Source: Thermoproteota archaeon (GTDB taxonomy: Archaea; Thermoproteota; Nitrososphaeria; Nitrososphaerales; Nitrosopumilaceae). Taken from it: a stretch of DNA of 64,000 nucleotides. A program made the position numbers and the translations under genes. This document shows, piece by piece, positions 695 to 62,493 of the stretch. A model generated the notes under the pieces. It worked only from the letters and a program-made list of their open reading frames with translations. It was not told where the DNA came from and did no database searches. The stretch covers positions 62,001-126,000 of the forward strand of contig QQVN01000002.1 in the NCBI GenBank assembly GCA_003352285.1, in the 5' to 3' direction. Position 1 is the first letter of the stretch, and each line of letters begins with the position of its first letter.

Positions 695-2017
695 ATGGCT
701 GAGACTGCTAACAAAAAATCCTATAAGAAAATCTTCTCACAATTAAAAGACCATAACAAGTGGTTTGAGAACTCCATTCCACTTATTGCTAGTGAGAATG
801 TTCCAAGTCCAGCAGTAAGGGAGGCCATAATATCGGACTTTGGGAATAGATATGCAGAAGGCTGGCCAGGAGAGCGAGTTTATGCTGGATGTATCTACAT
901 TGACGAAGTCGAATTTGAATGCATGAAGCTTGCAAAGAAGCTTTTCAAAGCCGAATTTGCCGATGTTAGAGCTATTTCTGGAGTAGTTGCAAATCTTGCA
1001 ATATACTCTGCATTTACAAATCCTGGAGATGTAATGCTTGCTCCATCAATTCCTGCAGGTGGCCATATCTCTCACGGAAAGAAAGAGCACTCTGGTACTG
1101 CAGGTTTAGTTCATGGTTTAGAAATTGAGTTTTATCCATTTGATGCCGAAGAGATGACTATTGATGTTGATAAAACAAAACAAAAGGTGGAAGAGCTAAA
1201 AAAATCAGGACGACTTCCAAAGATGGCAATGTTTGGAGGCTCATTGTTTTTGTTTCCTCATCCGGTAAAGGAATTAGCTGAGTTTCTTAAAGGACATGGT
1301 ATGCATGTTAATTATGATGCAGCACACGTAGCAGGTTTGATTGCTGGTGGAGAATTTCAAGATCCTTTACGAGAGGGAGCTGATACCATGACAATGAGTA
1401 CTCACAAGACATTATTTGGTCCCCAAGGAGGATTGGTCTTAGGTTCTGAAAAACATGGAGATGCAATCAAGAAAGCTACATTCCCAGGTCTAACAAGCAG
1501 CCATCACATTCATCACATGGCAGCTAAAGCAATTACATTTGCTGAGGCATTAGAGTTTGGAAAAGATTATGCTAAGGATGTGATAAAGAATGCAAAGATT
1601 CTTGCAGAATCACTTAGTGGATTTGGTTTTAAGGTTCTTGGTGAGAGTAGAGGTTTTACAAAATCTCACCAAATTGCTGTAAATGTTTTAGATTATTCAG
1701 ATGGTGGAGAAGTTGAAGCTAATTTGGAAAAAGCAAACATAATTGTCAACAGACAATTAATTCCCGGAGACATTAAAGCTGGTAGAAACTATTTCCATCC
1801 TGGAGGAATTAGATTAGGAGTATCTGAGATTACGAGATTAGGAATGAAAGGTTCTGAAATGAAAGAGATTGCATCATTTATCAAACAGGTCGTTATTGAC
1901 AAGAAAGATCCTAAGAAGATTTTACCCAAAGTAAAATCATTGAGAAAAGATTTCCAAAAGGTGCATTATTGTTTTGATAAAAAACTTGGTGCGTATGAAT
2001 ACGTAAAATTACGCTAG
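695..2017 (+). CDS. glyA: Serine hydroxymethyltransferase (glycine hydroxymethyltransferase)
   Basis: 440-residue fold-type I PLP enzyme that interconverts serine and glycine while loading a one-carbon unit on a folate or pterin carrier. The N-terminal region carries IPLIASENVPSPAVREA, and the PLP lysine lies in STHKTLFGPQGG (Lys238). Length is normal for the family. The ATG is about 27 bp after an AT box near 664-670 (TTTTTAAAT), so it is probably leaderless. The 3' end overlaps the convergent polC gene by 4 bp. The pterin used by this organism is not visible here. Confidence 0.97.
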   Translation: MAETANKKSYKKIFSQLKDHNKWFENSIPLIASENVPSPAVREAIISDFGNRYAEGWPGERVYAGCIYIDEVEFECMKLAKKLFKAEFADVRAISGVVANLAIYSAFTNPGDVMLAPSIPAGGHISHGKKEHSGTAGLVHGLEIEFYPFDAEEMTIDVDKTKQKVEELKKSGRLPKMAMFGGSLFLFPHPVKELAEFLKGHGMHVNYDAAHVAGLIAGGEFQDPLREGADTMTMSTHKTLFGPQGGLVLGSEKHGDAIKKATFPGLTSSHHIHHMAAKAITFAEALEFGKDYAKDVIKNAKILAESLSGFGFKVLGESRGFTKSHQIAVNVLDYSDGGEVEANLEKANIIVNRQLIPGDIKAGRNYFHPGGIRLGVSEITRLGMKGSEMKEIASFIKQVVIDKKDPKKILPKVKSLRKDFQKVHYCFDKKLGAYEYVKLR

Positions 2018-5000
2018 TTGTAATCGGTTAACAAAGCCTGATCTCCGTCACTTTTACCAAATACAAGCTCAATTTCATCAGATAATGCATGTATTCGTCC
2101 TCTTTGATAAACACTCACTTGGTATTTGTCAACTAGTCTTTTTGCAAGTTTTAGATATTTTTCAATGGATGCTCTCGTTATAGTCTGAATGACCTTGTTA
2201 CCACAAATACAATGCTGTAGCAAAGGAGTTCTTCTGTAACTACGTCCACAAGCAGTACATCGAAAACTCTGTCTTGCGTAGGCTCTTAGATTTCCCATAA
2301 TATCTGGCACCAAGTGTGTTGAAATTACGTTTGATACAATTTCAGTAGTATCCACTGCCTCAATGAGATCTGCATTTCGTATTTGCATGTCAAATTTATC
2401 TAGCATTGAACCAAGTGTTGAATATGCACTTCTTGATTTGCTTGTTGTTAAGCTAGAAGTGGAGTGGGTAAAATGATAGTTAAAGAATTGCTCTTCGGTA
2501 TCAAGTCTTGATTTAATTATTTCAACAGAAGTGATGTTTGATGCTTTGGGATTATCCATGGTGGAATCAAAGAAAGTTTTTGGAAAATGTTTTACGACTT
2601 CCAAATTATGTGCTTGGGGTTGAGATTCATGTGGCAAAACTAGTGGTTGTATCAAAAGTGGAGCATCCATCAAGCCGCCAATTTTATCAGACAAAAATTG
2701 TCTTGAAAAATTAAGGAGACTGTCCATTAGTAACATGATTGAATCTGCATCACCATCTGCGTCTCTTCTTTTTGCAGAGTGCCAGTTAGGAGTACCAAAG
2801 CATACATGAGTCTCAGTGTATCCTATCACTCGCCCAACAATCCCTACAGATGTGTGAGGGGCAAGACCTATGATTAGATGTCCAATTAGTTCATCTGTGT
2901 TTTTTACATTGTAAAATCCTGCTCGGTTGTAAAATTTTTCGAGTTCTAAATCGATGTACTTGCAGGTATCAACTAAATATCGTCCACTTTCAAGTGGAAT
3001 GATTACATCCTGCATCATCATCTCAACGATTTGATCTGAATCAGTCAATGGGTTACCATTAATGTCATGTGTGTATCCAAGCTCATTTAGCTTAGAAATG
3101 GATGTGCCAATCCAGGATGGTTTGAAGTGAGTCAAAGGGCAGTTTGTAGCATCGAATCGAATTGTGCCATCTTTAAAGACGGTCAGTCCAAGACTTTGCC
3201 TAATCAGTCCTTTTTCAAGTGGTTCTGCAATTCTGTCTTGATTGATGAGTTCTTTTACTCCTTTGAATGGCTCTTTTGCTCTAAGACCTGTCCTCTCTTG
3301 AGCGACTAAGAGTTTCTCCTTTAATGGAAATTCCTGATATGAGTACGCTAGGGTTTTTCTTTTACATTTTTCACAAAATTCTTCTGCGAGTTTTGATCTG
3401 CATACAGGACATACAAAAACGGTGGAGGTTTTGTTTCCGCATTTTTGGCAACGAATTCCAATTGATGGTTCGTTACAATCTTTGCAAAATCTGTTTGAGA
3501 TCTTTGTGTAAAAATTGGGTGAGTTTATGGCCTTTAACAGATCTCTTGTGATTCCACCCCTCTCATTTACAGGAAATAGAGTATGTATAGGAGGTTTCAT
3601 TTGTCGTGGTGCTGCTTTTTCAGGTCTTCCAATCCTCACTCCGATGGAAGTAGAAAACTTATTTCGAATTTGGATTCCAGATGACGTTGAAATTATTTTT
3701 GGGATTGGTGAGGATTCATCTGGTTCAATCTTATTTCTAAACAACAACGAAAAGAAAACTTCAGCTTCGGTTCCATCTAAAATTATTTTGTTGTTTTGAA
3801 GTTTATGTGGAACCCCAAGTTTCTCCAAAGTTTTTTTACAGGTTGACGAATAAACGATCTGATTGTCTAAAATTTCAAGTGGTTTTAGAACTTGTAGGAA
3901 TTCATTGTTTGTTATCTGATCCCAATAAAAGAGATATTTTGGATGTAGTGGGATTTTGAATTGGATTGATAGCTCTAATGCTTCATCTAATGAGGGAGTT
4001 TCTTTGAGAAACTTTTCTAACCTGTCCTTATCAGATTCGTATTTTTTTATAATTTCTTTTAGTTCTTCATTCCAGTATTCTTCAACATATCCTGAGGGTA
4101 CAAGTTGTGCGTTGTTTTCTAAGAAGTCTCCAAATGAAATTAATACGTCACCAAGATGAAGGATTTTTTCAATTTCGTTTTTGATTTGAATTCCATGTTG
4201 AATGTTTGAAATTTTTACTACATCACCGTTCTTTAAACGAACTATAGGTGTTTCAATGGAGTCAACAAATGCTACAGTAGCTCCCTTACCAGGCATGTCA
4301 ATTTTTACTTGTGTGCCAACGGCAATAGTGTGATCTAAAATTTCAGCAATTACTGGATGAAATCCAATACATGCAAACCCCGTATTACATGCTCGTCCAT
4401 ATCTTAGCCTAAATCCTCCCAATCTGTTTGGCATGGATAGCACAGATCTTCCTGTAATGACTTCACGCATTCTTTTTGAGGCAGCATCTTCTTGACTGTC
4501 TCCAGTTTGGATAGCTCCCTTGAGATCATTAAGCCATTCCCAACCATCCAAGTTGTACTGCTCAATTCTTTTTACTAGTTTTTTTGCTCTACCAATTAAT
4601 CCGTCATTTAGAACCCTAAGTGCACCGCCTCGAACCCTGTCTGTCTTGATTCTTACCATTCCTTTGTGATTTACTACTTCAAATGGATCCGTATCAACTC
4701 CATCAAGCTCAACTGGGAGATTTGAGATTACAGTTACAATATCTTCATCAAGAACATGAAATTGGAAACTGCTTGCTTCGCGTTCATAAATTCTTAATTC
4801 CTCTACAAATCTTCCAGTTTCGTCATCAAATGAATTTGCTTGGTATCTTGATAGGTTAGCTGCTTTTCTTACATGATCTGCTATAAGCATTGTAACAGCA
4901 GACTCTGTACCGCCAGCTGATCTCATCGGACCAGCTATAGATACCGAAAGATATTCTGTTCCATCTTTGTTTTTCTTTATTTTTACTTCAGAAATTCCTT

Positions 5001-5394
5001 GCAGTGGAGCTATTGTCACACCCTCTGTTACTATTGCCAGCCCTACCCTTACTGCAAGGTCCAGTCTCTCCTCAAGTGTAGAATCTGGTGGGAGGTATTT
5101 CCCAAGTGCTATCTCCTTTGAAAGTAAAAGTGCAGATAGTTCTTTACCATTTGTTTTTAGCAGTTCCCTTAGTGGCTCTGAAATATCAATATCGTGCATT
5201 TTTGCAACACGGTCTGCAAGGTCAAATGCAATTTTTGGCTCAATCATTCCAGAAGAATCAACTAGGGATGATTTTGCCAATGCTGCGCTTTCAAAAATTC
5301 TGTATGCTTCGTCTGATAGTTCAGAATAGTATTTCTGATAATTATGAGGCATTTTAAGGCCTTTAATGCGTAAAATTGCGTCGTTTTCTGACAT
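2014..5394 (-). CDS. polC: DNA polymerase D large (catalytic) subunit DP2
   Basis: 1126-residue catalytic subunit of the replicative archaeal polymerase PolD. The signature acidic motif DADGDAD is at residues 878-884, inside RRDADGDADSIMLLMD. Cys-rich zinc modules lie at about 637-680 and 1046-1068. The length fits an intein-free DP2; the common intein position near the active site is uninterrupted. It begins 8 bp after the GGGP synthase stop, so the two are probably co-transcribed. Its partner DP1 lies about 4 kb beyond its start, on the other side of the predicted origin. Membrane-lipid and replication genes sharing an operon is a neighbourhood observation only. Confidence 0.97.
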   Translation of the reverse strand: MSENDAILRIKGLKMPHNYQKYYSELSDEAYRIFESAALAKSSLVDSSGMIEPKIAFDLADRVAKMHDIDISEPLRELLKTNGKELSALLLSKEIALGKYLPPDSTLEERLDLAVRVGLAIVTEGVTIAPLQGISEVKIKKNKDGTEYLSVSIAGPMRSAGGTESAVTMLIADHVRKAANLSRYQANSFDDETGRFVEELRIYEREASSFQFHVLDEDIVTVISNLPVELDGVDTDPFEVVNHKGMVRIKTDRVRGGALRVLNDGLIGRAKKLVKRIEQYNLDGWEWLNDLKGAIQTGDSQEDAASKRMREVITGRSVLSMPNRLGGFRLRYGRACNTGFACIGFHPVIAEILDHTIAVGTQVKIDMPGKGATVAFVDSIETPIVRLKNGDVVKISNIQHGIQIKNEIEKILHLGDVLISFGDFLENNAQLVPSGYVEEYWNEELKEIIKKYESDKDRLEKFLKETPSLDEALELSIQFKIPLHPKYLFYWDQITNNEFLQVLKPLEILDNQIVYSSTCKKTLEKLGVPHKLQNNKIILDGTEAEVFFSLLFRNKIEPDESSPIPKIISTSSGIQIRNKFSTSIGVRIGRPEKAAPRQMKPPIHTLFPVNERGGITRDLLKAINSPNFYTKISNRFCKDCNEPSIGIRCQKCGNKTSTVFVCPVCRSKLAEEFCEKCKRKTLAYSYQEFPLKEKLLVAQERTGLRAKEPFKGVKELINQDRIAEPLEKGLIRQSLGLTVFKDGTIRFDATNCPLTHFKPSWIGTSISKLNELGYTHDINGNPLTDSDQIVEMMMQDVIIPLESGRYLVDTCKYIDLELEKFYNRAGFYNVKNTDELIGHLIIGLAPHTSVGIVGRVIGYTETHVCFGTPNWHSAKRRDADGDADSIMLLMDSLLNFSRQFLSDKIGGLMDAPLLIQPLVLPHESQPQAHNLEVVKHFPKTFFDSTMDNPKASNITSVEIIKSRLDTEEQFFNYHFTHSTSSLTTSKSRSAYSTLGSMLDKFDMQIRNADLIEAVDTTEIVSNVISTHLVPDIMGNLRAYARQSFRCTACGRSYRRTPLLQHCICGNKVIQTITRASIEKYLKLAKRLVDKYQVSVYQRGRIHALSDEIELVFGKSDGDQALLTDYN

Positions 5395-6585: not shown

Positions 6586-6713
6586 TTTCCAATCACCATT
6601 TAGTTTGATGTAGTAACGTATGATGTGATGATTTGTATGATGTGTAAGTTATCTATTTGGTGAAATTATGTTGTTCTATCACGATAAATCACAATCCACG
6701 CCTAAATTATGTG

Positions 6714-7301
6714 ATGTTAGTAGAAATTCCTGATCCAGAAGTGATTTTGAGTGGAATTGTTGCATTTTTGGTAGGTTTGTTTGGGTTGTATTTGTATTAT
6801 AAAATTAGACCATACGTAAATTTGAAGAAAAATACGCTTGATCCATCATATGTTGAACGTTTAGAGTACTATGAAAGGCAGTTAATTGACATGAAAATAC
6901 GCATGGATGCTATTGATATGGAGTCATTAAGTGTAAAAATGCCTGAATCCTCTCCACAGATTAAGGATTTTAGTAAAAATACACAGCAAGATGTGCCTAA
7001 ACCTGAGCCTGTAGTTGACATCAAGCCAGCCAGCCACCAAAAACAGGAAATTACGCCTAATTTACCACATGGTGATGTGACAGAATATGTCTTGAAGCTA
7101 ATCACAAGCAAACCTATGACATCACGTGATATTCAAGTCACAATTGATAGGACTAGGGAACATACTTCTAGATTGATGAAGAAGTTATTTGATGATGGAT
7201 ATGTTGATCGTAACACCAACACAAAACCCTACACATATTCAATTACTCCAAAAGGTAAAGAGCGAATTAGTGTTCTGGAAAATAACCCAACTGTGGTATA
7301 G
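6714..7301 (+). CDS. Membrane-anchored winged-helix protein
   Basis: 195 residues from ATG 6714 (GTG 6711 and a TTG at 6657 are less likely because the added residues look non-coding). One N-terminal membrane helix, about residues 9-33 (VILSGIVAFLVGLFGLYLYY), is followed by a short coiled-coil-like segment and a Pro/Lys-rich linker. The C-terminal winged helix covers about 120-190: MTSRDIQVTIDRTREHTSRL reads as a recognition helix and DGYVDRNTNTKPYTYSITPKG as the wing. This suggests a DNA-binding domain held at the membrane. The function is unknown. Confidence 0.8.
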   Translation: MLVEIPDPEVILSGIVAFLVGLFGLYLYYKIRPYVNLKKNTLDPSYVERLEYYERQLIDMKIRMDAIDMESLSVKMPESSPQIKDFSKNTQQDVPKPEPVVDIKPASHQKQEITPNLPHGDVTEYVLKLITSKPMTSRDIQVTIDRTREHTSRLMKKLFDDGYVDRNTNTKPYTYSITPKGKERISVLENNPTVV

Positions 7302-7416: not shown

Positions 7417-7587
7417 ATGGCTAGTGAAAATTACGAACATCATGAGATTTTAGTTAAGATTTCTTCGGCAGGGACGATATCTATACCTAAACAGTTTAGA
7501 AAATACATGGAGATGCAAAAGGGTGATTATGTTAAAGTGATTTTGGGTAGAGATAGGCTAATTGTAAGAAAGGTAATGATATCCTAA
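7417..7587 (+). CDS. Small SpoVT/AbrB-type DNA-binding protein
   Basis: 56-residue swapped-hairpin (AbrB) domain protein. The pattern VKISSAGTISIPKQFRKYM followed by GDYVKVILGRDRLIVRKV is the standard AbrB core, in which dimers bind DNA. It could be a regulator or an antitoxin, but no toxin-like gene lies beside it. It starts at ATG 7417 after an extremely AT-rich stretch (about 7330-7416) with several possible TATA boxes. Its stop overlaps the end of the convergent downstream gene by 4 bp. Confidence 0.85.
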   Translation: MASENYEHHEILVKISSAGTISIPKQFRKYMEMQKGDYVKVILGRDRLIVRKVMIS

Positions 7588-7973
7588 GTCCGTTCTTTTG
7601 AGAGTAGTTTTATGGTCTGATATGACCATTCTCTACCTGTTCTTGTACGCTCAATCCTGCCTTTCTGGGCAAACCTGGACAAATATGTTGAGATCACACT
7701 TAGTTTGATGGGCTCGTTATACTCGTCTTCGTATTTCTCTAGGATTGATGTTGATGTGAACTTGCCTATAGGGTAGTTTTTGTCTACAATATTCCATATT
7801 TTTGAGCCAACCGAGTCTAAATTTCGGGCTTCTTGACCTTCTTCAATATTCATCAAGTCCATCATTTCGAAGATTTTTAGGACTTTTTCTCTAGTTACAT
7901 TTCCTTCAAGTTTGATATCATATCTTGCTCCTTCAGAGTCCTCCATATCAATACGAATACGTTTCTTAGCCAT
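7584..7973 (-). CDS. Conserved hypothetical protein with C-terminal winged helix
   Basis: 129 residues. A short basic beta hairpin (MAKKRIRIDM) opens the protein, a helical middle follows, and the C-terminal 60 residues look like a winged helix (SVISTYLSRFAQKGRIERTR, then a beta wing). The layout resembles the 164-residue protein at 38785-39279, which opens MAKIRVKF and ends in a similar domain. The family is unknown to me. It is divergent from cdc6 across the predicted origin; a GTTAAC site (7997-8002) sits where its TATA box would be expected. Confidence 0.8.
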   Translation of the reverse strand: MAKKRIRIDMEDSEGARYDIKLEGNVTREKVLKIFEMMDLMNIEEGQEARNLDSVGSKIWNIVDKNYPIGKFTSTSILEKYEDEYNEPIKLSVISTYLSRFAQKGRIERTRTGREWSYQTIKLLSKERT

Positions 7974-8127
7974 AGAGTGATCAATGAGGATCTGATGTTA
8001 ACTCTTCAATAGATCCGGTCAGTTTTGTTAACTAAGTGGTTTGTTAACATTGACTGCCTAGCCCATGCCTAGGAGGTTTTTTGTTATTAACAATAGATAG
8101 CCTAAACAGCCTTAAGATATGTTTAAT

Positions 8128-8155
8128 TTCACGCCTGGACTGGAAATAAAGGGGT
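8128..8155 (+). repeat. ORB-like element 1 (direct)
   Basis: Begins TTCACGCCT and ends in the core CTGGAAATAAAGGGGT. It is 26/28 identical to the copy at 8189-8216. The core, with TGGAAA followed by a G-string, matches the archaeal origin recognition box bound by Orc1/Cdc6. Confidence 0.8.
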
Positions 8156-8188
8156 AGTTTTTTGATATTAACAATGTTAACATCTATC

Positions 8189-8216
8189 TTCACGCCTAGA
8201 GTGGAAATAAAGGGGT
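8189..8216 (+). repeat. ORB-like element 2 (direct)
   Basis: Core GTGGAAATAAAGGGGT, same orientation as element 1 and 61 bp downstream, close to six helical turns. Both copies would therefore present on a similar face of the DNA. Confidence 0.8.
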
Positions 8217-8280
8217 CATTTAGCGTTCTTTTTGGATTTACTTAACATTTCATTAACTGATTGTTAACATGGAAAACCCA

Positions 8281-8299
8281 CACACCGATATTTCCACTC
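8281..8299 (-). repeat. ORB-like element 3 (inverted, partial)
   Basis: On the minus strand GAGTGGAAATATCGGTGT matches element 2 (GAGTGGAAATAAAGGGGT) at 15 of 18 positions. Its orientation is opposite to elements 1 and 2, and the T-rich tract 8300-8322 starts next to it. Confidence 0.6.
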
Positions 8300-8322
8300 T
8301 TTTTTTCTTTTAATTTTTTTTA
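8300..8322. other. T-rich tract, possible duplex-unwinding element
   Basis: Almost uninterrupted T run (with one C and an AA) next to the inverted ORB-like element. Its position suits a DNA-unwinding element. It could also act as a T-rich terminator for leftward-entering transcription. Confidence 0.4.
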
Positions 8323-8436
8323 AGAGAATCTAACTACTAACTATACTAGAATCCAATATCATTCTAAATTATCCACACTAGAAACAATGGTGTCTGAGTA
8401 TCTTTATGGAAAATATATGCGATCAAAACTGGTCAA

Positions 8437-9726
8437 TTGAAACGATCCTCAATGTTAAAAATAACAATAGGATCCATTGAAGAGTTAATGGATGAAAAAA
8501 TGGATCCCGAGATGAGCGTGACTACATTAGACCCAATAGATAGAATGCTTGATGCAGCAGAAACCGGTAAATCATTAATTAAAAACCGAAACATTCTACA
8601 TTTTACATACATTCCAAATGTAATTCATCATAGGGACTCTGAACAAGAAAAGGTCACCCAATCATTATTACCAATTTTAAAACAATCAAGACCATCAAAT
8701 CTTCTAGTATATGGAAAACCAGGAACAGGAAAAACCCTAGTTGTTAGAAAGGTACTCTCAAAAATACAAGAAAGAGTTGAGAAGAGCAACTTTCCAATTA
8801 AACTAATTTACGCCAACTCAAAAGACGAAACAACACTCTATGGACTTTTAGTAAGTCTAGGAAGGCAACTAAACCTCTCCGAAAAAGAACTTCCTTCCAC
8901 AGGCCTAGCAATTAGCGAAGTCTTCAAACGCCTCTTAAAAAACATCGAAGATGAAAAAATTAATGCGATATTTGTTGTAGATGAGATTGATTACCTAGCC
9001 CAACTGGTATCAAAAACAGGTAAAGACATCCTATACCAACTCACAAGAGCAAATGAGAGAATAAAGTCAGGCTCCCTTACACTAGTAGGCATTTCAAATG
9101 ACCTTACTTTCAAAGAAACACTTGATCCTAGGGTGATTAGTAGCCTTGGTGAGGAAGAGGTAGTATTTACTAACTATTCTGTAGAACAACTAAACAAAAT
9201 CTTAGAGGAGCGAATTAGAGAAGCCTTCTTGGATGACTCTATTGAGGAATCTGCACTCAACCTATGTGCTGCCATGGCAGGTAGAGAACACGGCGATGCA
9301 AGACGAGCAATTGATCTTCTTAGGGTTGCAGGGGAAATGGCTGAAAGAGAACAGGCCAAAAAAGTCACTGAAAAACACATCAGGGAAGCGTCCCAAAAAA
9401 TTGAAGAAAACAAAGAGATCACGGCCCTAAAATCATACCCTTTACATGAAAAATTACTAATTATTGCAGTCATGAAGGCAAACGGAGCATCTACTGGCGA
9501 AATTTATTCAGCATACAAGGATCTCTGTAAAATTATCAGGCAAAAGGAACTAACACAAAGACGTGTTACCCAAATGCTCAGTGAAATAGAAATGTCTGGA
9601 ATAATCACAGGTCGTATAGTGCACCAAGGAATTCATGGAAGAACAAAAAAATTCAAACTAACAATTCCCACCGATATGGTAAAACAAACATTCAGTGACG
9701 ACCTATCACTGGAAGATATTATCTAA
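8437..9726 (+). CDS. cdc6: Orc1/Cdc6 replication initiation protein
   Basis: 429-residue AAA+ initiator that binds ORB elements and helps load MCM. Walker A GKPGTGKT is at residues 93-100 and Walker B VVDEID at about 180-185, followed by the helical lid and a C-terminal winged helix (about 340-420). The TTG at 8437 is about 25 bp after AAATATAT (8410-8417); an ATG at 8452 is the alternative. It lies immediately beside the predicted origin, as is usual. The 3' end overlaps the convergent DP1 gene by 8 bp. Confidence 0.96.
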   Translation: MKRSSMLKITIGSIEELMDEKMDPEMSVTTLDPIDRMLDAAETGKSLIKNRNILHFTYIPNVIHHRDSEQEKVTQSLLPILKQSRPSNLLVYGKPGTGKTLVVRKVLSKIQERVEKSNFPIKLIYANSKDETTLYGLLVSLGRQLNLSEKELPSTGLAISEVFKRLLKNIEDEKINAIFVVDEIDYLAQLVSKTGKDILYQLTRANERIKSGSLTLVGISNDLTFKETLDPRVISSLGEEEVVFTNYSVEQLNKILEERIREAFLDDSIEESALNLCAAMAGREHGDARRAIDLLRVAGEMAEREQAKKVTEKHIREASQKIEENKEITALKSYPLHEKLLIIAVMKANGASTGEIYSAYKDLCKIIRQKELTQRRVTQMLSEIEMSGIITGRIVHQGIHGRTKKFKLTIPTDMVKQTFSDDLSLEDII

Positions 9727-11146
9727 CACTAAAATCCTTAGAATAAACCTTGAAGGTTTTCAAATTAAGAATGATTGCCAGCCCAGGCGTAGGTGTTATC
9801 CCAACACTTGATTGAAAAGGCGTTTGATTCTGCCATGTTCCCGAATTAATCATCAATACTCCACGGTATAGGTCCAAGTCGACTACATGTACGTGCCCCA
9901 CATGGAAAACATCAGGCACTTCATCAATCACCATCATATCTTCTGACTCTGGGGCTATTGGGGTTTGACTTCCATAAACAGGACTCATATGCCTAGCCCT
10001 CAACAAGTGTTTCATTACATTTACCGGCTTGTCGTAACTTAATCCCGGAGTTACCTTCACAATATCATCAATACTCTGACCGTGAAACATCAATACTCTC
10101 ACCCCGTTTAGCGATACCATAGATGGATTTCCTACCATGTGGAAATTTTGAGTCTCCCAAAAAGCTGAATTGTATTTTTTTGGAATAGCTGGCTGAGGAA
10201 GTGCCCGCCTTCCAGGATCGTGGTTTCCAGGCATTATTACAACATGAATGTTTTTTGGGATTTTTGATAAAAGATCATAGGTCTTTGATAGTTGGGATTC
10301 AATTGTTGGAAAATCCAATTCCTTGTCTTGGTTTGGATATATCCCAACACCATCAACCAAGTCCCCACCAATCAAAACAAAACGAGTTTTTCTTGCTATT
10401 GGGTCTGGACTCGATAACCATACGACAAAATCCTCAAACTCTTTTTCCATGAAATACTTACTTCCAATATGCAAATCAGAAAGAAAGACAGCGTACGTAT
10501 CTGTCTCAGACCTGTTTGACGCCTTATCGGGAATATCGGGTAAAATCACATCTTTTATGATATATCCACCTTTTTTTGAGGCAGAGACCTTTAACATAAC
10601 GTACTGATCTATTAGCAACACTTCAGAGACCTGCTGCAAGTCTTTATCAAAAACAATACCCTCTAGCACACCCGTGGGATCCTCCACTGTAATTCTAACA
10701 ACACTTCTCTCTGATGATCTCTCAGTTACAAGCCCTGACACATACATATCATCCTCCGATTTTGTCGCAATTACTGAGGATATCGACTTTAACAACCTCG
10801 CCTCAGGCCTGTTTGATATTATTTTTTTAAGTTTTGCAAGACGGCTTGCAAACAACATGTTATACCCAGATACCCCTTCAGCTGATGTAATCTTTGAAGA
10901 AGGATCTGAAAGTATTCGAAACTCACTTTTTAGAGCAGCATCTTCTTTTATCCCTAAAAACATCTCCAAGTCATCCTGATTTATTAAAAATAATTTTTGC
11001 CGTGTCTTTTGCCTTACCACCTCTTTAATGACATGCTGCAGATCCTCAATCTGAACTCCCTCCAGAATTTTTAATGCATCAGGATGTATCTGGAATCCCT
11101 TGTTTAACGCGTAGTTTAATGCGAGTGAAACTTCTCTATTCAACAT
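9719..11146 (-). CDS. polB: DNA polymerase D small subunit DP1
   Basis: 475-residue DP1, the Mre11-like 3'-5' proofreading nuclease subunit of PolD. An N-terminal helical domain and OB fold precede the phosphoesterase domain. Its metal-binding motifs are intact: SDLHIGSKYF, GGDLVDG, MPGNHDPG, FHGQS and HVGHVH. The ATG at 11146 is preferred over the TTG at 11149 because it lies about 24 bp from the AT box TTTTAATTAAAT. Its partner DP2 is at 2014-5394, so both PolD genes flank the predicted origin. Confidence 0.95.
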   Translation of the reverse strand: MLNREVSLALNYALNKGFQIHPDALKILEGVQIEDLQHVIKEVVRQKTRQKLFLINQDDLEMFLGIKEDAALKSEFRILSDPSSKITSAEGVSGYNMLFASRLAKLKKIISNRPEARLLKSISSVIATKSEDDMYVSGLVTERSSERSVVRITVEDPTGVLEGIVFDKDLQQVSEVLLIDQYVMLKVSASKKGGYIIKDVILPDIPDKASNRSETDTYAVFLSDLHIGSKYFMEKEFEDFVVWLSSPDPIARKTRFVLIGGDLVDGVGIYPNQDKELDFPTIESQLSKTYDLLSKIPKNIHVVIMPGNHDPGRRALPQPAIPKKYNSAFWETQNFHMVGNPSMVSLNGVRVLMFHGQSIDDIVKVTPGLSYDKPVNVMKHLLRARHMSPVYGSQTPIAPESEDMMVIDEVPDVFHVGHVHVVDLDLYRGVLMINSGTWQNQTPFQSSVGITPTPGLAIILNLKTFKVYSKDFSVR

Positions 11147-11230
11147 CAAAAAATCTATGACGTTTTAATTAAATCTGCGCACATTACACACCAACAGGCT
11201 CAAATAGTGTTTGAAAAATTTTTAGTTATT

Positions 11231-61509: not shown

Positions 61510-62493
61510 TTGACTAAATTCATTCGACGCCTACAAAGAATTGGAAGTAGCATACTTGTATCCCTGCCAAAAGAATGGGTTGACCAGCATAATCTTGATA
61601 AAAATATGGAAGTCGAATTGGAAACAGGACAAAATACCATATCTATAACTGCAGACAAAGAATCACGTCCTTCAAAAGAAGTGACAATTTCGTATCCATT
61701 ACCTAAAGAAGAAAACATTGTAGCAGATATCACTGGAGCATATCTATTGGGATATGATGTAATAATTGTTCAAGGAAAATCCACAATTCCTGTAGAAGAC
61801 AGAGAAAAAATAAGAAATTCAATGCGTCGATTAGTTGGCATGGAAATAGTTGAAGAAGATGCATCAACAATCAATGTTCAATTTTTACTTGATGCAACTA
61901 CAATTAATCCACAAAAAATCCTCAAACGTATGCATACCATTGTATTGGCAATGTTTAGTGATGTAATGACAGCATTATCTACATATGATAAATCAAATCT
62001 TCAAACATTAGCTAACAGAGACGACGAAGTTAACAGGCAATATTTCCTTTTAGTACGATTGATCCGAAGTACAATGATTGATAATAGATTAGTTGATATG
62101 TTTAATCTTGAAAAAATTGATGTACTCGATTATCGAATAGCTGCAAACCTTCTAGAAAGTGCTGGAGATACAATTGTTGAGCTTGCAAACTCAATTTACC
62201 TATCAACCCTTTCTAAAATAGATCTAAAGAAAATTCACGATATTGTAAAAAATTTTGGAAAAATGCAAGAGAAATCGATTGATGCTTTTATAAAAAACGA
62301 TAGAAGTATTGCTATTGAAGCAATTTCTTTGCATAAGGAAAATCAGAAAAAAATGTCTTTACTTAGATCATCCCTTGATTCAAAAAACCAACTTCCTATT
62401 GATTTCTTAGATCTTATACATATGTTTGAACGTGTAGAACGTTCTTGGGCAGATATTGCTGATTTAGTAAAACCGATATATTCAAAACAATAA
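61510..62493 (+). CDS. PhoU-domain protein with N-terminal SpoVT/AbrB domain
   Basis: 327 residues from TTG. An AbrB hairpin occupies residues 1-50 ([20 protein letters not shown], then VELETG), and two PhoU-like helical bundles follow ([27 protein letters not shown], then ALESAGDT-like [14 protein letters not shown]). PhoU proteins control phosphate uptake; the DNA-binding AbrB end suggests direct gene control. It overlaps the NUDIX gene by 12 bp. No Pst transporter genes are nearby. Confidence 0.87.

Follow-up and report, generated by a model that had tools for sequence, protein, structure and literature searches.

In this 1.69-Mb Nitrosopumilaceae genome, chromosome replication very probably starts in the non-coding gap at positions 7974–8511 of the analyzed window, which would be its oriC and probably its sole origin. 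The window comprises 64,000 nucleotides, corresponding to positions 62001–126000 of contig C2 (1–266192), and the gap is flanked by a leftward gene (7584–7973, minus strand) and by orc1/cdc6 (8512–9726, plus strand), the genome's single copy, with ORB elements located upstream of the latter. This reading is based on three agreeing lines, namely strand asymmetry, conservation in relatives, and the literature on N. maritimus. The original prediction of a replication origin beside cdc6 was borne out by a skew inflection, by the confinement of the ORBs to this site, and by their conservation in related genomes; it was incomplete in that it overlooked GTTAAC elements, a fourth ORB-like element, and a conserved divergent gene. 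The origin is not new in kind but a further case of the known ORB-origin type, since the single N. maritimus origin has already been mapped in vivo, reportedly by Pelve et al. 2013. Our result is an element map of the origin across the whole family, and for this ammonia-oxidising archaeon the origin is now located to within a few hundred bases.

The Orc1/Cdc6 protein matched PF22703, PF09079, and TIGR02928 above cut-off and combines an AAA+ ATPase, a Cdc6 lid, and a C-terminal winged helix; its closest PDB entries are Aeropyrum Orc1 (2v1u) and Sulfolobus Orc1-1 (2qby). The longest cdc6 reading frame begins with TTG at 8437, and the region of the original prediction ended at 8436. Relatives begin next to the DPIDR motif, at residues corresponding to ATG 8512. 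We therefore prefer ATG 8512 over TTG 8437 as the probable start, with the first 25 codons from TTG 8437 probably being non-coding, and the gap probably extends to 8511. The next gene after cdc6 encodes DP1 (9719–11149, minus strand), and both this gene and the one for PolD DP2 (2014–5394, minus strand) lie within ~6 kb of the origin.

Two direct ORB-like elements, ORB1 (8128–8155, plus strand; TTCACGCCTGGACTGGAAATAAAGGGGT) and ORB2 (8189–8216, plus strand; TTCACGCCTAGAGTGGAAATAAAGGGGT), are identical at 26 of 28 positions and lie 61 bp apart from start to start, as predicted. The predicted inverted partial copy, ORB3, is likewise real and was placed at 8282–8300 (minus strand), where it is 84% complementary to 8198–8216. 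Alignment with relatives revealed a degenerate fourth ORB-like element (8380–8400, plus strand; AGAAACAATGGTGTCTGAGTA), giving the element order direct, direct, inverted, (direct). At least two elements are thus found near orc1/cdc6. A search of the window with the 28-mer (≤3 mismatches) returned just two matches, with 0 expected. The exact 14-nt core TGGAAATAAAGGGG occurs twice in the entire genome, both times at the origin, and the wider 22-nt ORB (≤3 mismatches) has one additional genome match, with three mismatches. ORB copies, which had to be more frequent here than elsewhere in the genome for the original prediction to stand, are thus confined to this site. Looser matches to the 14-nt core were rejected as evidence, since about seven copies with three mismatches are found per window by chance, and the inverted copy is therefore unremarkable by itself. 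The count of TGTTAACA with one mismatch was at chance level across the whole window.

The common ORB motif has been given as TCCA[CG]T[TG]GAAA[TC][GA]AAGGGGT (PMC4164010). Its right part is fitted by TGGAAATAAAGGGGT, so that the predicted match of the core to the archaeal initiator box holds for this part, but the TCCA half is replaced by TGGA in ORB1 and ORB2 of Nitrosopumilaceae, and by TAGA in ORB2 of this genome. This deviation of the left half from the published motif counts against the origin reading. Most other Nitrososphaeria families retain TCCA or a near form. Within Nitrosopumilaceae, the consensus is GCCTGGAnTGGAAATAArGGGGT for ORB1 and ORB2, and the family consensus of ORB3 is AGAGTGGAAAkATwGGTGTGTG; the right end GGTGTGTG is common to ORB3 and the fourth element, unlike ORB1 and ORB2.

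The AT content of the gap peaks in 8300–8339 (85%), and the T-rich tract of the original prediction proved to be real and to mark the beginning of this peak. We regard the T-rich/AT-rich tract at 8300–8345, the AT maximum of the gap, as a candidate unwinding element, which together with ORB3 provides the combination of inverted ORBs and a putative AT-rich unwinding region; an AT-rich tract is located at the corresponding place in relatives, too. The gap is further bracketed by an imperfect 57-nt inverted repeat (left arm 7998–8054, plus strand; right arm 8432–8488, minus strand), whose arms are 70% complementary. Its right arm lies in DNA that is absent from, and unaligned to, the other family members shown, and the repeat was therefore set aside as an origin feature and considered a probable lineage-specific duplication. 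The extra DNA that sets the fourth element apart from cdc6 contains this inverted, partly decayed copy of 7998–8054.

All 79 named relatives compared carry the ORB pair, spaced by 61 or 62 bp, as well as an inverted element at the equivalent position. The counts stem from related genomes and hence are not independent observations; the loci include MAGs, where assembly errors are possible. The fourth element is intact in 66 of the 79, and there it reaches into the cdc6 start or lies directly next to it. ORB-like pairs are also present in other Nitrososphaeria families. In one locus (L030, G192), the fourth ORB-like element occurs twice upstream of cdc6, at a distance of 227 bp, which would fit a tandem duplication of the part of the origin nearest to cdc6 but may be an assembly artefact.

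Strand asymmetry was analyzed on the whole 266-kb contig, on which the extreme of the nucleotide-disparity curve lies at the site: cumulative GC skew reaches its maximum at C2:69624, ~0.5 kb from the ORBs. A change-point analysis of plus-strand G minus C at fourfold-degenerate sites placed the break in the gap separating the divergent gene from cdc6, and not one of 5000 permutations was equally extreme. Both results agree with the inflection that the original prediction had called for. As the switch is seen on genes of both strands, it does not merely reflect gene orientation. In a closed relative, sampled in spaced stretches, the skew switches near cdc6 and returns roughly opposite. The polarity of the skew is opposite to the bacterial norm, with the leading strand C-rich at fourfold sites, which weighs against the origin reading. 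Since the analysis covered one whole contig and spaced stretches elsewhere, a weaker second origin may exist in another part of the genome. On contig C3, the sign of the third-position skew flips back between sampled stretches at ~535–600 kb, a candidate terminus region.

Interleaved with the ORBs are five exact GTTAAC palindromes (7997–8002, 8027–8032, 8043–8048, 8176–8181, and 8263–8268) and several one-mismatch forms. The second is the most conserved (exact in 24 of 26 aligned relatives) and lies 16 bp from the third; the fourth is located between ORB1 and ORB2, and the fifth between ORB2 and ORB3. The total number of GTTAAC sites in the window is at chance level and was discarded as evidence, leaving their clustering at the origin as the informative feature. 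Among the 64 palindromic hexamers, GTTAAC is the most clustered on the contig, with its peak at the origin, and never exceeds two per 540-bp window elsewhere. Across the 79 relatives, the stretch of 620 bp upstream of cdc6 holds 7.08 sites/kb, compared with 0.06/kb for the remainder of the loci, i.e., ~100-fold more at the origin than in flanking DNA, and 4.4 sites per region compare to 0.24 in shuffles. GTTAAC is also the top repeated palindrome in many loci of other Nitrososphaeria families, but three families of the class lack it in the loci sampled; outside the class, it reaches low counts, though often above shuffled expectation. A literature search with partial coverage returned, as judged by title and abstract, no paper on GTTAAC at origins of this kind. 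We infer that the palindromes form a second, separate class of origin element, with a dimeric protein that functions at the origin as the binder we favor.

The best candidate for such a binder would be the uncharacterized 129-aa protein encoded divergently from cdc6 (7584–7973, minus strand), as its gene tracks the origin. The protein is present in 118 of 120 genomes of the class, and its gene is located divergently beside cdc6 in 99 of 104 compared class pairs, with a gap of 339–807 bp. Outside the class, it is divergently adjacent to cdc6 in 25 of 71 genomes, from nine families, and unlinked in the rest. The protein had no match in Pfam, no sequence family above cut-off, and no significant hit in a PDB sequence search. 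An AlphaFold2 model (mean pLDDT 79, pTM 0.53) predicts a beta-beta-alpha part followed by a C-terminal winged helix, with helices at residues 55–66, 74–85, and 91–103 and strands at 107–112 and 115–120, i.e., a three-helix bundle with a beta hairpin. In structure comparison, residues ~47–124 group with many winged-helix regulators (VIA Z up to 10.8 over ~70 residues; Foldseek E not below 0.001), and the core of the recognition helix, STYLxR, is kept in most sampled members. As the winged-helix arrangement is too common, no function can be assigned from the fold. Gene and palindrome both look like old components of origins of this kind, and we propose a role for the protein in origin function, perhaps through GTTAAC. 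The link between the two is a correlation among genomes that share a genealogy. Two further ORFs lie nearby: a small 56-aa ORF of the AbrB/MazE type just left of the divergent gene (7417–7587, plus strand), and a 214-aa ORF (6657–7301, plus strand) whose C-terminal part matches the winged-helix model PF13463 and whose N-terminal part includes a hydrophobic stretch.

Two other explanations for the palindromes have to be weighed, each of which we consider less likely than not without dismissing it. GTTAAC could serve as an operator, either for the cdc6 promoter or for the winged-helix gene, instead of being an origin element. Regulators with a winged helix commonly recognize palindromes close to the promoter of their own gene, and the gene lies directly beside the sites. 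However, the sites are interleaved with the ORBs, 250–500 bp from the cdc6 start and not at the core promoter, and three genomes in which the winged-helix gene is ~3 kb from cdc6 keep all GTTAAC sites in the ORB-bearing cdc6 gap. The latter finding lowers the probability of a simple self-operator, whereas an operator for cdc6 is unaffected by the argument. To a similarly limited degree, an unlinked nucleoid-type protein could bind the palindromes, or they could be methylation sites timing initiation, with the divergent gene being unrelated. GTTAAC is self-complementary and contains an adenine, and could thus be read by a methylase. Moreover, two families (f6 and f3) keep GTTAAC though their winged-helix protein differs much, and Sulfolobus offers a precedent with UBP on ucm, a non-ORB origin motif for which the binder gene was found by purification (PMC12141716). 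Against an unlinked binder stands the finding that, of the uncharacterized genes tested, the winged-helix gene alone tracks the cdc6 gap.

Far less probable is an explanation that concerns all elements, according to which they are mainly operators, with Cdc6 on the ORB-like boxes and another factor on GTTAAC regulating the divergent promoters of cdc6 and the winged-helix gene, while replication starts elsewhere. The elements do sit between two divergent promoters, and the fourth one abuts the cdc6 start in relatives. Yet the strand-asymmetry switch falls exactly at the gap, the orthologous single origin of N. maritimus was mapped in vivo (PMC4010727), and autoregulation and origin function can coexist. 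That the repeats arose by chance or by a lineage-specific duplication without function, as the imperfect inverted duplication bracketing the gap might suggest, is refuted with near certainty by their order and spacing, kept in 79/79 relatives, and by the lack of further genome copies equal to the ORBs.

Taking the gap as the origin, we infer the following steps of binding, unwinding, and loading. Orc1/Cdc6, encoded next door and homologous to DNA-binding Orc1 proteins, would bind ORB1, ORB2, and the inverted ORB3 and distort the DNA. By analogy to the Sulfolobus model of Cdc6 on ORBs and MCM loaded at adjacent AT-rich DNA (PMC12141716), it would recruit MCM to nearby AT-rich DNA, most likely at 8300–8345 or at 8217–8281 between ORB2 and ORB3, and two forks would then depart in opposite directions. 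Since relatives have the fourth element at the start of cdc6, Cdc6 may use it to regulate its own expression. GTTAAC would be occupied by a dimeric protein, with the divergently encoded winged-helix protein as the candidate. Extended to the class, this leads to a tentative proposal, which we regard as possible rather than probable: Nitrososphaeria-type origins may carry a second, ancient cis-element, GTTAAC, together with a divergently oriented neighbor of cdc6 whose winged-helix product is dedicated to reading it. Such a pair would add a further player to initiation, or to the control of initiation, besides Orc1/Cdc6 and MCM, and one unlike Sulfolobus ucm/UBP. With GTTAAC and the cdc6-linked winged-helix gene occurring across many families, the question of what proteins other than Orc1/Cdc6 work at archaeal origins would become open to direct testing.

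Compared to known systems, the origin most directly resembles that of N. maritimus, a member of the same family, whose chromosome has a single origin mapped in vivo (PMC4010727, PMC5333045), with ORB repeats before a cdc gene (PMC5797428); it differs in that, in the genus analyzed here, the fourth element is degenerate and cdc6 is preceded by ~110 bp of additional DNA. With the Orc1-1-bound Ori1 of Aeropyrum pernix and oriC1 of Sulfolobus, it shares an AT-rich tract, an adjacent orc1 gene, and several ORBs whose cores read TGGAAA...GGGG, whereas the order direct, direct, inverted, (direct) and the replacement of TCCA by TGGA/TAGA set it apart. The proximity of PolD genes resembles the linkage of the PolD small-subunit (DP1) gene to cdc6 in euryarchaea (PMC2643942), as DP1 follows cdc6 and DP2 lies within 6 kb, but here the arrangement is found in a Nitrosopumilaceae genome. 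Regarding the palindromes, the closest parallel is Sulfolobus ucm/UBP, i.e., a conserved non-ORB motif inside the origin for which the candidate reader is a small protein, either basic or DNA-binding. However, ucm is an 11-bp sequence within the DUE, whereas GTTAAC is a multi-copy palindrome, and UBP, a saddle-shaped dimer with stirrup loops (PMC12141716), is set apart by description from our candidate, which was modelled as a winged helix.
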